Notes under the pieces: model-generated | Database searches by the model: none | The model's input: the letters and a program-made list of their open reading frames with translations, nothing else | Told to the model about the DNA's origin: nothing | Translations under genes and position numbers: made by a program | In this document: positions 27,284-33,094 of the stretch, in pieces | How the letters are laid out: every line of letters begins with the position of its first letter | How positions within the stretch are numbered: position 1 is the stretch's first letter | Assembly (NCBI GenBank): GCA_030526485.1 | Contig: JAUNCS010000010.1 | Location: 1 to 51,008, forward strand | Source: Erysipelotrichaceae bacterium | GTDB lineage: Bacteria; Bacillota_I; Bacilli_A; Erysipelotrichales; Erysipelotrichaceae | Direction of reading: 5' to 3' | DNA: 51,008 nucleotides

Positions 27284-27490
27284 AAAAAAATAAAAAAGGT
27301 GACACAAGGGTGCATAGTGCACGGTACCACCTTAACTTTTTACTCAAATTCTTTAACGCAGAACTACGTCCTGGCCTACCTATCGACCAGAAAGCTCAAG
27401 ATCCATCTTCTTCGCTTCAACTGTTCTTTTCCACCAAACAAGAACTCTCTATATAGTCTATGACGAATACTCTATCCTTCTTTGCCATTT
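27284..27490 (-). promoter_or_regulatory. T-box riboswitch (Met) before metG
   Basis: The minus-strand leader has the T-box hallmarks. A stem I carries the distal GGTGGAA loop (near 27430), an ATG specifier occurs in GAAGATGGATC (27404-27406), and the antiterminator word AAGGTGGTACCGTGC lies at 27318-27333. A terminator hairpin then ends in a T run before metG. Uncharged tRNA-Met would stabilise the antiterminator. The T-box word differs from the usual ACCGCG ending by reading ACCGTG. Confidence 0.88.
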
Positions 27491-27491
27491 A

Positions 27492-27526: not shown

Positions 27527-27634
27527 CTAGATATTAAAGATAATTTTTGCGATATTGGCCATCACTTTGATAAAGGCTAAAACCACTGTCATTTCCACAA
27601 ATGCCGAAACATATTCATCAATAAGTTCTTTCAT
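27527..27634 (-). CDS. 35-residue pilin-like membrane peptide
   Basis: MKELIDEYVSAFVEMTVVLAF then IKVMANIAKIIFNI. The reading frame is complete and starts inside the stop codon of the preceding gene (ATGA overlap), which argues that it is translated. It has the same N-terminal plan as four other small genes of this operon: Met-Lys, short hydrophobic/acidic stretch, Glu-Tyr, then a membrane helix. There is no leader peptide or Gly cleavage site. It is the last gene of the Tad-like operon. The function is inferred from position and shape. Confidence 0.6.
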   Translation of the reverse strand: MKELIDEYVSAFVEMTVVLAFIKVMANIAKIIFNI

Positions 27635-27957
27635 TTTACATAACCGCTGATACGTCCATTAATAGTATTACTTTTAAAGAAAGGCATACTTACAGAGTAA
27701 TGAAGAATGACTTCCATGTCTTTCCTGGTCTTTACAGAACTCAGTTCTTTTACTTCAAAACGCCAGCCCTCTTTTAGACTTCTATTTAAGTCGTCTGCGC
27801 TGACCAGATAATAAGAAGCCTGTATCTTATTGATTGCTTCATTATGGATAGTACGGGCATTAAGCATTTGTAAACTCACACCAATAATACCCGTAAAGAC
27901 AAAGACCAGAATCATGGTGATGATCATCGTTGTCAGATATTCAAAGAGATTCTTCAT
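27631..27957 (-). CDS. pilin-like/pseudopilin protein, 108 residues
   Basis: Begins MKNLFEYLTTMIITMILVFVF, so a Phe-Glu-Tyr group sits right before one membrane segment (about residues 9-30). The rest is an extracellular-looking domain with a beta-strand pattern (RFEVKELSSVKTRKDMEVILHYSVSMPFF). It overlaps the preceding pilin-like gene by 17 bases and the next by the ATGA. The architecture resembles TadE/TadF pseudopilins, except for the missing leader peptide. Confidence 0.65.
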   Translation of the reverse strand: MKNLFEYLTTMIITMILVFVFTGIIGVSLQMLNARTIHNEAINKIQASYYLVSADDLNRSLKEGWRFEVKELSSVKTRKDMEVILHYSVSMPFFKSNTINGRISGYVK

Positions 27958-28381
27958 CGCTGCTGATACCTCTTTGATCTACCACATACAGTTTGGCAGA
28001 ACTGCTATATTCTTCGCCATTATAGTAAAGTGTATATCTTAAATCCATTTCACCTTCATTGCTCGTATCAATATTTCTGGTATTAAGTATTACAAAGTCA
28101 CTGATATCTTCACCAATACTGTTAAAAGCTGATACATGTTCCTGATAGTTAAATGCTTCATTTAAATCAATGACGGCATCTTTAACTACAAAACGATTTT
28201 CATCAATACTTACTGTCTCGTAGTCCTCAATCAAAGTGGGGACTCTTGAACACATATTGATGGAGTCAATATTGGTATTTAAAAGATTTAGAAGAAAGGC
28301 GCTTAAGAAACTTGAAAGAATCAGGAAACCGACAGTAATCGCAATTAACGCATCAGCATATTCATCAAATAAATGTTTCAT
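27941..28381 (-). CDS. pilin-like/TadE-like protein, 146 residues
   Basis: Begins MKHLFDEYADALIAITVGFL, with Glu-Tyr at residues 7-8 and one membrane segment at about 11-34. A roughly 110-residue domain follows with several beta-strand-like stretches (DENRFVVKDAVIDLNEAF, MDLRYTLYYNGEEY). It is one base downstream of the 48-residue pilin-like gene and overlaps the next. TadE-type minor pilins have a single N-terminal helix and a small external domain of this size. No cleavage site is visible. Confidence 0.65.
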   Translation of the reverse strand: MKHLFDEYADALIAITVGFLILSSFLSAFLLNLLNTNIDSINMCSRVPTLIEDYETVSIDENRFVVKDAVIDLNEAFNYQEHVSAFNSIGEDISDFVILNTRNIDTSNEGEMDLRYTLYYNGEEYSSSAKLYVVDQRGISSDEESL

Positions 28382-28382
28382 C

Positions 28383-28529
28383 TTACATTAAGTTGCTGGT
28401 AAAAGACTCAATCGCTGATTTGACTGATATCGTATTGGTCAGAAATGATTCAATAATCATTTCAATGCAGATAACGCCAATTATTAATGCCAGTATCATT
28501 AGGCCATACTCCGAAAACAGTTTACGCAT
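28383..28529 (-). CDS. pilin-like membrane peptide, 48 residues
   Basis: Too short for a standard search but complete: MRKLFSEYGLMILALIIGVI, then CIEMIIESFLTNTISVKSAIESF. The Glu-Tyr-Gly at residues 7-9 followed by hydrophobic residues is the signature of mature Flp pilins, which normally start after a processed leader. Here the Met begins only six residues before that Glu. One base separates it from both neighbouring genes. I take it as a Flp-type subunit. Confidence 0.65.
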   Translation of the reverse strand: MRKLFSEYGLMILALIIGVICIEMIIESFLTNTISVKSAIESFTSNLM

Positions 28530-28530
28530 A

Positions 28531-29871
28531 CTAGCCCGCCTTTTCTATCGCCTTCATTAATTCTTCGTTATAGTAGCCATCCTTAAAGATGGAATTATCT
28601 TTTAATGTATCTAAGTAATCTTTATCAATATAGCGGGAATAAATCTTCACGCCATCATTCACCTCCTTTATTTCGCCTGTACCCAGAATATGAAATCTTC
28701 TTGTAACAGTAACTGTTACATTACCTGAATTGGTAATAGAAAACTGTGCTACAAAACTCTGGGCATCATTCAGTATCAGTTCATTAGGATTTAGTATTTT
28801 ATTATTATCTTTTTCATAAAGCAGATAATCGACTTTTATATTATTTGTGATATCACCATCAAGTTCATCACTGGCCTTGGCATTTACCATTTGAATAAAA
28901 TCTTTGATAGGTATACTATCATCTTTTTGATCAAAGTACTGATAGCCAACAAAAAGTATTGGTGGCTTTCGCTTATAGTGAGCCTTTAGATTTAAATCAC
29001 CATAAGAACCCTTCTCAATTCTTTCATACTTCTTATCATTTTCATCAAACCAGCCAAGAAATTCATAACCCTTCTTAGATGCTGAAGGTAAAGTCAGTTC
29101 TTCCAGGATGGTATATTCCTTTTTAACTTCACCAACAAATTTACCTCCATCAAGATCATAATTAATCTGATACTTGATAGGTCTTGAATATACTTCTCTT
29201 TCAACTGGCAGCTGACAGTTTTCACCAATGATATGCTCATATGGAGTATCAAAACGCCAGTCCTGACCATCAGTCCAACTCGTTACATAGGAATATTCTG
29301 TAGTAAGGGTTGTTGCCCAGGTACCAACCATTGAAGTAGTATTGCGACCATCGGTATTGTTGCTCGACATATTTAAAGTTAAGTAACGGCAGTTGCAGTC
29401 AAGCTGCGGATTCCAGTTCAACATTGGATCATGTCTACCAACAGAAGCTATCAGATTGCCATCGCAATAAAGCTGTAAAGGTGGGCCCTCATAATTAGTC
29501 CAGGAATAATTGATATAGGTATCAACGTCCGCATAAAAGAAAACGATGCGGGCCGGATACTTAAAGTCCCAGGTAAATAAAGATTTACCATTGGCTTCAT
29601 ACCAGAACTTCTGCTGTCCATCATAAGAATAATAGTTGGTGCGCCCCTCTCTGCTTCTGCGATAAAGCGAAGTTGGTATTTCACTTGACCATTCTGACCA
29701 GGTCTTAGGAAGCTGCCTTCCATACTGGATAGCTGATATTTCATTTGGATCGCCAGTCTTTTCCGTTGACCACTCGGTATAACCTAGCTCTACATTTTCC
29801 GCTAAAACATTGGTACGGGTATTTGAAATTAAGAGAAAAAGAAACGCAACTAAAATTATTATTTTCTTCAT
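28531..29871 (-). CDS. secreted protein with InlB/Listeria-Bacteroides type repeat
   Basis: 446 residues. A signal peptide (MKKIIILVAFLFLLISNTRT) is followed by an external region with many Trp and Tyr. Around residues 245-300 a beta-grasp repeat reads YQINYDLDGGKFVGEVKKEYTILEEL then KKGYEFLGWFDENDKKYERI, matching InlB B-repeat/Flg_new type modules. A C-terminal part has beta-sandwich-like strands (SFVAQFSITNSGNVTVTVTRRF). No LPXTG or membrane anchor is seen. It overlaps the next upstream gene by four bases. It is probably the adhesin or a pilus-associated surface protein. Confidence 0.75.
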   Translation of the reverse strand: MKKIIILVAFLFLLISNTRTNVLAENVELGYTEWSTEKTGDPNEISAIQYGRQLPKTWSEWSSEIPTSLYRRSREGRTNYYSYDGQQKFWYEANGKSLFTWDFKYPARIVFFYADVDTYINYSWTNYEGPPLQLYCDGNLIASVGRHDPMLNWNPQLDCNCRYLTLNMSSNNTDGRNTTSMVGTWATTLTTEYSYVTSWTDGQDWRFDTPYEHIIGENCQLPVEREVYSRPIKYQINYDLDGGKFVGEVKKEYTILEELTLPSASKKGYEFLGWFDENDKKYERIEKGSYGDLNLKAHYKRKPPILFVGYQYFDQKDDSIPIKDFIQMVNAKASDELDGDITNNIKVDYLLYEKDNNKILNPNELILNDAQSFVAQFSITNSGNVTVTVTRRFHILGTGEIKEVNDGVKIYSRYIDKDYLDTLKDNSIFKDGYYNEELMKAIEKAG

Positions 29872-30275
29872 ACCAGTACATCAATAAAGTTAATCAGCTT
29901 GCGGTCAATGTAGCGATAGTTTCCTGTTAAACTCTTGTATTTGCAACGCACCAGTACATAGAGTAGACCACTGTTATAGTCAGCATAATAATCGCTTACT
30001 TCATAATCACTGTTAGTTGAAACCAGCTTATTTAAGTTCTCTTTATAAATATTTAAATAAGTATCATTATCATCTATATTGACGCGGGCATTACTGGTGC
30101 CAAAATACTTATCTTCAATATTCTCCTGCATCAGAATCTGGGTATTAGCCATGGCTATCGTTGAAATGCGATTTAGCTCATCATAACGGATATTTAAGTC
30201 ATAGACATAAAACAGCATCAGGCAGACATAAACACCCATCACTGTTAAGCCAAAAGATCTAATCAAGATTTTCAT
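29868..30275 (-). CDS. TadE-like minor pilin protein, 135 residues
   Basis: A single N-terminal membrane segment (MKILIRSFGLTVMGVYVCLMLFYVY) is followed by an external domain of about 105 residues. This fits a TadE-like pseudopilin. Unlike its five smaller relatives in the operon, it lacks the Glu-Tyr group before the helix. It overlaps the TadB/TadC-like gene and the repeat-protein gene by four bases each, so translation is probably coupled. Confidence 0.6.
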   Translation of the reverse strand: MKILIRSFGLTVMGVYVCLMLFYVYDLNIRYDELNRISTIAMANTQILMQENIEDKYFGTSNARVNIDDNDTYLNIYKENLNKLVSTNSDYEVSDYYADYNSGLLYVLVRCKYKSLTGNYRYIDRKLINFIDVLV

Positions 30276-31768
30276 AGATTAATAGCTCCATTGATATTGC
30301 TCATCATGTAGCCAAACATCCCAAACATGGAAATTATCATCTGAAAACAAAACAGTACTGTCGGCACATAACCTAAGGCCTCGATGCCACCAATCGAATC
30401 ATTATTGCGGATACTTTCAGCCTTATCCAGCATTTCCTGATTTCTGATAATCAGATTGGAAATGCGATCACCCACATCTTCCTTGCCAATATTTTGAATT
30501 GCATATAAAACCTTCATACTTGATCTGGCATCTTCCAGGTCAAAGTCTGATAGAAATTCATTGTAAGGCTTAATTGATGTTGGATCCTTCTTTACCTCAT
30601 TCAAGAACTTTCGGATTTCCTTTCTTAAAGGATAAGAAGCCATATTCTGTGATAATTCAATCGCATTGATTACTGTTAAATTATTCAAAGACAAAGAAAT
30701 TTCTCTAAGCCAGATAGGGAACTCAACTATTAAAGCTTTATTCACAATACGATATGCTCTCTTGTATCTTCTCTTATAGTTAAAAAGAATCATTAATCCA
30801 AGCACAAGACAAATAAGCATATAAAGATATTCTTTCTGAATAAACAGATAAACAGCTCCCGCAATCGATAAGACCGTCATGATGTAATCAGCTATTTTAG
30901 GTTTCTTTAATCCTCCACGATAAATCTCATAATACTTTTTAAGATATTCATCATCACTGCTGCTTAAGTCATTGATCAGCCATTCACCATGCAGCTTAAT
31001 AGAAAGAATAGTAATGGTAATCATAACTGAAGCTATAAACAATAGAGTAATAATCTGATATAAATTCGTTTTAGTAAAACCGATAAAGAATTCATTGCTG
31101 ACATAAAGATAGGCGAACAAAGAATTCATCATTAAAGTCACCAGACAAAGAACTATCAGCTTTGTCCTTCGATTCTTTAAGTCTTTCTGAAACTTGTAAA
31201 TTCTTTTAATCCAGCATTCAATGTCCTCGTACATATTTTGACAGACATCTTCATAGACCACTGAATTCTGTGACTCAATACTTAAGAGCAGCTTATGAAC
31301 TGACCTGACTCGGGAATTAGGAAAGTCTTCTTCAATAATTCTTAAGGCATTCTTGGATAAATCCGGGTCACTTGTTGTATTGTCCAGATAATGAATAGCC
31401 TTCTTAATACTTTCTTTCATATTAGAACTGGCTATATCAAAGAGCTCGCCCAGGGTATATCTGATCTTGGTCTTTTGGGTGAAGATGGGAATGATATTGC
31501 CGAGATAATCCGTCAGCATATTAAACTTCTGAATGCTGTAAGCCTGTTTACAGAAGGATAAGATAATCATTGGTAAAACAATGAGACTCAACATAATCAG
31601 AAGCAGCATGTATTCAATTTTTAAATAAGAAATATAGGAAATCAGAAAGATGAAGGTCATCAGTAAGATAGTACTTAAAAAGAAACTTTTGTAAGAGAAA
31701 TTAAAGCCATACTTGTTTACTGATGTCTTTAAATATTTAAGATTGTACTTCTTTAGAAATTCTTTCAT
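30272..31768 (-). CDS. fused TadB/TadC-like pilus platform protein
   Basis: 498 residues with an N-terminal membrane pair (about 25-70), a cytoplasmic T2SSF-like domain, a membrane pair (about 205-250), a second membrane pair (about 290-335), a second T2SSF-like domain and a C-terminal helix. This is the layout expected if TadB and TadC, usually two proteins near 300 residues, were joined. It forms the inner-membrane platform on which CpaF acts. It overlaps the ATPase gene by 32 bases and the next gene by four. Confidence 0.75.
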   Translation of the reverse strand: MKEFLKKYNLKYLKTSVNKYGFNFSYKSFFLSTILLMTFIFLISYISYLKIEYMLLLIMLSLIVLPMIILSFCKQAYSIQKFNMLTDYLGNIIPIFTQKTKIRYTLGELFDIASSNMKESIKKAIHYLDNTTSDPDLSKNALRIIEEDFPNSRVRSVHKLLLSIESQNSVVYEDVCQNMYEDIECWIKRIYKFQKDLKNRRTKLIVLCLVTLMMNSLFAYLYVSNEFFIGFTKTNLYQIITLLFIASVMITITILSIKLHGEWLINDLSSSDDEYLKKYYEIYRGGLKKPKIADYIMTVLSIAGAVYLFIQKEYLYMLICLVLGLMILFNYKRRYKRAYRIVNKALIVEFPIWLREISLSLNNLTVINAIELSQNMASYPLRKEIRKFLNEVKKDPTSIKPYNEFLSDFDLEDARSSMKVLYAIQNIGKEDVGDRISNLIIRNQEMLDKAESIRNNDSIGGIEALGYVPTVLFCFQMIISMFGMFGYMMSNINGAINL

Positions 31769-32816
31769 TATTCATTTCCTCTTTTAAAAAACTTATATAA
31801 AGATTCAAAAATTCATTCTCCCTGTTATCCTTAAATTTCTGATAGATATTCTCCGGAATGATTACTCTTTGCGGTTTACCATTCTTCACAATTGTCTTAA
31901 TCGAATTCTTTTTATCACTGCGGTCAAAGAAACAGACCTGATCTATAGAACGCTTAATACCCTTAGGTGAATAAGTAGCCTTAACCTTGATTGCATAATC
32001 AAAGAAGGTATAGACATCATTTTCAAAACCTGTACGCGAATTATCACCTGCCATATTTACAATGCGGTCAGGGATCTCCCAGACATTTTCCGCATGTATT
32101 GAAGTAAGAGCTACACAACCCGAAGAAGCACCTTCCATAATTCTTAAGATTTCTCTTCCTCGTGATTCGGAAATAATCAGCCACTTGGTATTTAATCTAA
32201 GAGCATCTCTAATTGCCTGCTCAGCCGAATAGTTTTCAGATATCTTTAGGGGATAGATATCCTTCTTTGGATAGAGCTGATCAAGTTTCATTTCCAATGT
32301 ATCCTCAACAGTTACAATTGGGTCATTATTTGGAATAAAGTTACACAAATACTTTTCCAGTTCGGTCTTACCAGCACCAACATCACCGGTTATGACACCC
32401 GATAGACGGCTGCGCATTAAACAAGGCAATAACTTGGCAACAAATTCATTCACATAGCCATTGGCAATCAAATCCTGTTTCAAGAGTCTGGCCACCTTCG
32501 GGGTTTTTCTGATAGCCAGACAGATAGAAGTATTGCCCGAAACACTGCTGTGTACCGCCTGAATTCTTAATTCGTCTGTTTCCGCTTTTAAAGATGGCTT
32601 AGACATATTAAAGTTTTCATTTACGGAATTTGCCACAATATTCGTAAATATTTTCAGCCACTCTTCGCTTAATTTAATACTCTCCTCCAGGTACCTGCCC
32701 TTGTTTAAGTCAGTCACCCAAAGAGCCTTCCCATTCCACTTAAGATCCGTCACATTATCATCAATAATGTACGGCCATAATTCTTTAAATAATTCTTCAC
32801 TGATTTCTAATGCCAT
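31737..32816 (-). CDS. cpaF: Tad pilus assembly ATPase CpaF/TadA
   Basis: 359-residue type II/IV secretion ATPase. Walker A is GDVGAGKTE near residue 147, the Asp box is VTVEDTLEM, and the His box is ALTSIHAENVWEIPDRI near 240. No FHA or N-terminal extension is present, so it is shorter than many CpaF proteins. It provides the energy for pilus assembly. It is the second gene of the operon, after a 58-residue pilin, and overlaps the platform gene by 32 bases. It lacks a clear Shine-Dalgarno sequence. Confidence 0.92.
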   Translation of the reverse strand: MALEISEELFKELWPYIIDDNVTDLKWNGKALWVTDLNKGRYLEESIKLSEEWLKIFTNIVANSVNENFNMSKPSLKAETDELRIQAVHSSVSGNTSICLAIRKTPKVARLLKQDLIANGYVNEFVAKLLPCLMRSRLSGVITGDVGAGKTELEKYLCNFIPNNDPIVTVEDTLEMKLDQLYPKKDIYPLKISENYSAEQAIRDALRLNTKWLIISESRGREILRIMEGASSGCVALTSIHAENVWEIPDRIVNMAGDNSRTGFENDVYTFFDYAIKVKATYSPKGIKRSIDQVCFFDRSDKKNSIKTIVKNGKPQRVIIPENIYQKFKDNRENEFLNLYISFLKEEMNNERISKEVQS

Positions 32817-32836
32817 CTTTTAGTCCCTTGAAATCC

Positions 32837-33013
32837 TTAGCCCTTGTTTCCAAGATTAGTTAAATCGCCACTGACCTTAGTAGAAAAACTATTCATGGTA
32901 GTAGTGATATTACTCTGGACAGTATTGGCAATTGGTGATGCCATTGCGATAAGAGCAATTAAGACCACTGCTGCCAGCATTACAAATCCGTATTCTTCAA
33001 AAAATGATTTCAT
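32837..33013 (-). CDS. Flp-like major pilin candidate, 58 residues
   Basis: MKSFFEEYGFVMLAAVVLIA continues as ALIAMASPIANTVQSNITTTMNSFSTKVSGDLTNLGNKG. This is the length and shape of a mature Flp pilin: Glu-Tyr-Gly, a 20-residue helix, then a short polar tail. The Met lies only five residues before the first Glu, so there is no leader and no Gly cleavage site. A strong AAAGGAG precedes the ATG. It is the first gene of the operon, consistent with the most abundant subunit. Confidence 0.75.
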   Translation of the reverse strand: MKSFFEEYGFVMLAAVVLIALIAMASPIANTVQSNITTTMNSFSTKVSGDLTNLGNKG

Positions 33014-33063: not shown

Positions 33064-33094
33064 AAAAAAATCCTCACTTTTCGTGAAGATTTTT
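33064..33094 (-). terminator. aldo/keto reductase terminator
   Basis: A 12-bp stem with one mismatch (33066-33077 with 33083-33094) is followed by a T run on the minus strand. It insulates the pilus operon, whose promoter I could not place with confidence in the 50 bases that remain. Confidence 0.8.

Follow-up and report, generated by a model that had tools for sequence, protein, structure and literature searches.

This work concerns a nine-gene operon in a 51,008-nucleotide stretch of DNA from an Erysipelotrichaceae bacterium. This whole stretch, which we call the window, is contig C45 of a 1.95-Mb draft genome; the nearest relatives that bear a name are Solobacterium and metagenome genomes of Erysipelotrichaceae. 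The nine genes lie closely packed on the minus strand and span 33013-27527. We believe, from reading these genes and their relatives, that the operon probably specifies a divergent pilus machine of the Tad-like (type IVc) kind in a monoderm bacterium, and that its pilins are probably assembled unprocessed. An initial annotation had proposed a pilus built from unprocessed subunits. The Tad-like machine, the leaderless pilins and the peptidase-free locus all speak for that proposal; assembly itself is a step that we infer.

The absence of leaders is the center of the argument. In reviews, the defining mark of a type IV pilin is a leader with Gly or Ala at its end, which must come off before assembly (PMC10191384). 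We scanned for the prepilin rule, (A/G)x4(D/E) followed by a hydrophobic helix, and it has zero matches in all nine operon proteins, so the earlier statement that no Gly cleavage site is present holds. Scanning the same genome in this way does pick up six prepilins with leaders, which belong to three other filament loci. With a slash at the end of the leader, these read NNDG/SLSLEF and NNG/SLSLEM in a Tad locus on contig C58, KKG/FTLAE in the type IV pili on C24, and KSG/MSLGE in the pilins beside PilD on C19. Five of the small operon proteins begin MKSFFEEYG, MRKLFSEYG, MKHLFDEYA, MKNLFEYLT and MKELIDEYV, exactly as they had been quoted. The first of these is the Flp-like major pilin (58 residues, 32837..33013), which starts MKSFFEEYGFVMLAAVV. 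It cannot gain a leader from an upstream start because an in-frame TAA lies two codons upstream of its ATG (33013), which is preceded by the Shine-Dalgarno sequence AGAAAGGAG. The alternative starts that the initial annotation named among the things that would refute its proposal are therefore not available to this gene. They are ruled out in most relatives as well: among 44 distinct leaderless pilins, an in-frame stop falls within ten codons upstream in 30, an alternative upstream ATG, GTG or TTG is absent in 29, and the Shine-Dalgarno sequence sits at the Met. At one locus (L078, genome G130) translation of the pilin from a GTG gives MSCIKAFFEEYG, with Ile in place of the conserved Met; the start there is non-standard, or else the protein has a few additional residues.

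These pilins are not a peculiarity of one genome. Of 196 family genomes, 59 carry a CpaF relative, and these represent 19 of 60 genera; the loci around these relatives hold the 44 distinct short leaderless pilins, typically beginning MKAFFEEYG. The main motif class comprises 38 distinct pilins, and five residues (M1, K2, F5, E7 and G9) never vary among them. Between close relatives, pilin pairs differ by 0.02-0.16 at nonsynonymous sites (pN) versus 0.64-1.01 at synonymous sites (pS), so the pilins are under strong purifying selection. The pattern exceeds chance, because five residues are invariant in 38 pilins and pN is far below pS. The TadE-like proteins follow a similar rule: M1, K2 and E6 are found in all 27 distinct sequences, which were selected by that start, and are invariant across the 10 sequences of an alignment (A3). 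A few carriers have no pilin of the main motif in the stretch examined. A second subtype occurs at L095, L096, L098, L100 and L101, where a leaderless pilin, MKEILQEYGGFILS, lies upstream of RcpC/CpaB and CpaF. When the pilin profile was searched phylum-wide, which covered the window's own phylum in GTDB (Clostridia fall outside it), 15 of 392 genomes matched and 12 of these belong to this family. We set aside the matches in G521 and G371, which lie inside longer proteins and, in the short loci inspected, have no ATPase next to them. Relatives were not found on viral contigs. The absence of a leader is thus a sequence feature of a lineage spread through the Erysipelotrichaceae.

The question of the peptidase is less simple. 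The initial annotation saw no peptidase gene, and this is right for the locus and wrong for the genome, which has a single A24 peptidase, PilD, on contig C19, where it adjoins type IV prepilins with normal leaders. A profile made from 15 family peptidases recovered all controls, yet across 58 loci (662 kb) it detected no A24 gene. Most genomes that carry the operon do have an A24 gene somewhere, and this co-occurrence is not decisive because many carriers may also have competence or other pili. Seven carriers gave no A24 match above cut-off, three of them from genus g32, and we do not use them as proof. The g32 genomes keep comG operons with leader-bearing prepilins, so a peptidase was probably overlooked there or falls within a gap, and this genus is not counted as evidence. 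Two g32 loci (L158, L159) show comG prepilins with four-residue leaders (for example MRKG/FTMLE) in a genus where the A24 profile has no match above cut-off. What matters most here is that the operon's pilins lack the motif that PilD cuts, and this stands. The window genome has a PilD together with canonical Tad and type IV pilin loci with normal leaders; the loss of leaders is therefore locus-specific.

The machine can be identified by several routes. The CpaF/TadA-type ATPase (359 residues, 31737..32816) falls in the T2SSE superfamily (Pfam T2SSE, expectation value (E) 3.6e-19) with a Walker A motif, GDVGAGKT, and an IHAEN box, and it reaches E 3e-20, below cut-off, against the NCBIfam TadA-family model TIGR03819. 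TadB and TadC are one fused platform protein in the window (498 residues, 30272..31768) and separate proteins in sister genera. Residues 5-266 of the fusion resemble the separate TadB of sister loci (hhalign E 8.9e-33) and residues 323-490 the separate TadC (hhalign E 2.4e-30). An AlphaFold2 model of the fusion has a predicted local distance difference test score (pLDDT) of 84.6, and VIA-align gives its TadB half Z of 8.0-8.4 to PilC/OutF/EpsF domains over 100-114 residues. Helical proteins can reach such Z values by chance, but several of the nine best rows belong to this one family. Foldseek returned no matches with this model, and a direct comparison with the TadC on C58 of the same genome was not significant. 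In sister loci, the 108-residue (27631..27957) and 135-residue (29868..30275) proteins have TadE-like and TadF-like counterparts, respectively. RcpC/CpaB, which is specific to Tad systems, is found in sister loci, above cut-off at L100 (E 1.4e-10) and just below it at L053; no candidate for it was found among the proteins of the window operon. No secretin was seen, and none is expected in a monoderm. By these matches, a Tad-like filament machine is well supported.

The operon shares much with the known Tad/Flp systems (Caulobacter PilA-CpaF, Aggregatibacter Flp1-TadA): the CpaF-type ATPase, TadB and TadC, TadE/TadF-like proteins, a candidate pilin of Flp size with Glu-Tyr-Gly and a single helix and, at some sister loci, RcpC/CpaB. 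It differs from them in that its pilins have no leader or cleavage site, TadV is not in the locus, TadZ was not seen any more than a secretin, TadB and TadC are fused in the window's clade, and Pfam T2SSF misses both. The Tad locus on C58 is the same type of machine in the same cell, but it has normal leaders and a TadB that Pfam T2SSF recognises. A CpaF tree separates the leaderless loci from this C58 Tad; one row (G023) is a wrongly picked open reading frame, long branches make deep placement unsure, and we use the tree for that separation alone. The C58 locus itself (L013, G000:C58:16000-34000) is a canonical-type second Tad whose CpaF has a close relative in one other of the 78 family genomes searched, which suggests that it was recently acquired.

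The initial annotation called this design one it had not seen described, and that is nearly right. The partial precedent is Imam et al. 2011 (PMC3244431), who reported a few Clostridial tad-like loci that lack any protein bearing a prepilin motif, yet have tadV. Compared by description only, those loci have tadV and tadZ and no pilin candidates were identified in them, whereas the present lineage has identifiable pilins that start at mature-like sequence and a locus free of the peptidase. Bulleidia extructa, which belongs to the same taxonomic order as the window genome, has a Tad locus with tadV (PMC12786226).

How would such a pilus work? The small pilins would insert N-in by their helix, with Met-Lys serving as the cytoplasmic, positively charged end in place of a leader of 5-25 residues. 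CpaF and the platform would then extract them, uncleaved, and build a helical filament that is short or thin. In the Tad pilus of Caulobacter, residue 5 of the mature pilin (Glu19 in the precursor) forms bonds with the backbone of the neighbours' Ala17 and Tyr20 (PMC11067988), and the conserved Glu-Tyr-Gly could provide contacts between subunits as E5-Y6 do in Caulobacter PilA. The TadE-like, immunoglobulin-like and secreted proteins may build or decorate the tip and attach to surfaces or to other cells. The single PilD of the genome would serve the other, leader-bearing pilins and would not be needed at the leaderless operon.

Several points weigh against assembly of unprocessed pilins. All well-studied type IV filaments require removal of the leader (PMC10191384; PMC12075869), the window genome does contain PilD, and both the filament and its uncut N-terminus are predictions from the genes. 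The likeness to known Flp pilins is weak. The family profile, run against 177,635 PDB sequences, has Caulobacter Tad PilA (8u1k) as its best match at E 0.55, not significant alone, with the pilin Glu-Tyr-Gly in register with mature E5-Y6-G7. The suggested check with hidden Markov models against Flp gave an equally modest answer, Pfam Flp_Fap reaching a best E of 0.013 in 4 of 23 members. A Flp_Fap family search of 61 Bacillota genomes found no members and so supplied no leader-bearing Flp relatives for comparison. The conserved Glu stands at residue 6-7, not 5. Finally, residue 3 is elsewhere Ala in 30 of 38 Flp-like proteins and Gly or Ala in 20 of 27 TadE-like proteins, which could mean a tiny leader.

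This last point leads to the alternative that survives best, a cryptic three-residue leader, in which PilD or ComC would cut after MKA, MKG or MKS and leave a mature Phe or Ala N-terminus. Besides the preference at residue 3, the short leaders of the ComG prepilins in an operon-bearing genus and the A24 peptidase of most carriers make this idea attractive. We nevertheless judge it unlikely on balance. Cleavage there would put the Glu at +3/+4 instead of +5, none of the 58 loci has a detected A24 gene, and elsewhere residue 3 can also be Ile, Met, Glu, Thr, Gln or Asn. Such a leader is plausible in other genera. It is unlikely in the window proteins because their residue 3 is Ser, Lys, His, Asn or Glu, with no Gly or Ala among them.

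The remaining genes of the operon bear on a second alternative. After the platform gene comes the TadF-like membrane protein of 135 residues, which begins MKILIRSFGL, has no Pfam match and is identified from a cross-genus alignment (A6). It is followed by a secreted protein (446 residues, 28531..29871) with a Sec-type signal and one InlB-type repeat (Pfam Flg_new, E 3.7e-9). This protein is conserved within the genus and is a candidate adhesin or tip protein; its AlphaFold2 model is poor (pLDDT 52.9) and was not used. Then come a second leaderless Flp-like pilin (48 residues, MRKLFSEYG, 28383..28529), a minor pilin-like protein with an MKHLFDEYA helix (146 residues, 27941..28381; alignment A5) whose C-terminal domain is possibly immunoglobulin-like (a weak match to PF16403, E 0.078), the leaderless TadE-like minor pilin that begins MKNLFEYLT, and a pilin-like helix protein (35 residues, MKELIDEYV, 27527..27634) with orthologs of 32-35 residues in sister loci. 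One could argue that no filament is made and that these helices remain membrane-bound and form a short pseudopilus or piston, a stripped system resembling type II secretion that exports the 446-residue protein and others like it. The pilin-like proteins are very short (35-58 residues), secreted protein genes lie within the operon both here and at L126, and leader removal would be unnecessary if the subunits never leave the membrane for long. However, true Flp pilins of Tad systems are equally short, and most sister loci lack the 446-residue protein, which bears a Sec-type signal of its own. We consider a pseudopilus quite improbable, and a pilus of unprocessed subunits the better account.

Relatives of the machine extend beyond the family. 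Among plasmids, the ATPase has its nearest matches on pLS20-type and other conjugative plasmids of Bacilli. There the gene order TadF-like, CpaF, TadB, TadC, TadE-like is that of the sister loci, and hhalign relates the plasmid proteins to the chromosomal ones at E 1.9e-8 (TadB), 9.5e-12 (TadC), 5.8e-6 (TadE) and 1.8e-6 (TadF). Judged by these alignments and the shared order, the plasmid module is homologous to the TadB/TadC/TadE/TadF of the family. The plasmid modules are flanked, 5' or 3', by one or more leaderless proteins of 47-51 residues such as MLDQNADRMYWVIGAVLVVGALIGLA. No similarity between the plasmid and chromosomal pilins was detected by hhalign (E 0.016), and they are alike in size, position and leader absence only. 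The pLS20-type operons (Bacillus, Listeria, Enterococcus, Brochothrix) thus share the order and the leaderless helix proteins, often in tandem, but differ in their DNA-transfer setting and in having a thioester adhesin in place of the 446-residue protein. A full Tad-like module lies within the conjugation operons of a B. subtilis pLS20-type plasmid (L151:5389-9447) and of L149 and L152-L157, mostly annotated as hypothetical. At several of these loci it adjoins a thioester adhesin or an isopeptide-forming fimbrial protein, and at two the small pilin-like gene has near-identical tandem duplications of three or four copies (L155:4779-5401, L157:3501-4229). Our reading of the gene order is that the plasmid virB11 is the CpaF-like gene. 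Published accounts describe Gram-positive conjugation systems as having no pilus (PMC11730352, PMC8092201), and in the literature apart from subscription journals and preprints we found no description of a Tad module on pLS20-type plasmids. We put forward only tentatively the broader idea that a Bacilli lineage, made up of Erysipelotrichales chromosomes and pLS20-type elements, may polymerise full-length, Met-retaining pilins with no leader or peptidase.

The plasmid setting could also be taken to mean that the operon is a relic of type IV secretion, of VirB11/VirB2 type, and not a type IV filament. This is very improbable: the best NCBIfam model of the ATPase is VirB11 (87.5 bits, far under its cut-off of 250) and the pilin matches TrbC/VirB2 at E 0.026, but a platform of PilC/GspF fold and the RcpC/CpaB of sister loci belong to type IV filaments, Pfam and NCBIfam identify no VirB4, VirB6 or VirD4 in the nine-gene operon (in sister loci this was judged by gene content only), and two plasmids that bear the module carry separate VirB2-like or CagC-like genes.

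The initial annotation described the operon well in most respects. All nine minus-strand open reading frames are present where it placed them, and its naming of the machine and of a TadE-like member was borne out with small corrections: the 135-residue protein is TadF-like and the 108-residue protein is the TadE-like one. It gave overlaps of 1-32 bases; the junctions are indeed compact, with overlaps of 4-32, and the two 1-nucleotide junctions are gaps. From 5' to 3' along the operon they are a gap of 20, overlaps of 32, 4 and 4, gaps of 1 and 1, and overlaps of 17 and 4 nucleotides. A hairpin resembling an intrinsic terminator (33066..33094, minus strand) lies between the upstream gene and the operon, in a region where terminator-like sites are no more numerous than chance expectation. 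At the 3' limit, directly after the operon, a T-box leader (27303..27491, minus strand; Rfam RF00230, 101.9 bits) precedes a methionyl-tRNA synthetase-like (metG-like) gene.

If pilins of this kind are assembled as they are made, then leader cleavage would be non-essential for the assembly of type IV filaments, and leader processing would characterise some systems without being a rule for the whole superfamily. A conserved leaderless lineage would also explain why pilin finders based on motifs miss such loci. Because pLS20-type plasmids carry the homologous module, the question of processing is testable in laboratory B. subtilis. The module also has a bearing on how donor and recipient cells of Gram-positive bacteria make contact, and if the broader idea is right, Gram-positive conjugation would gain an overlooked pilus.

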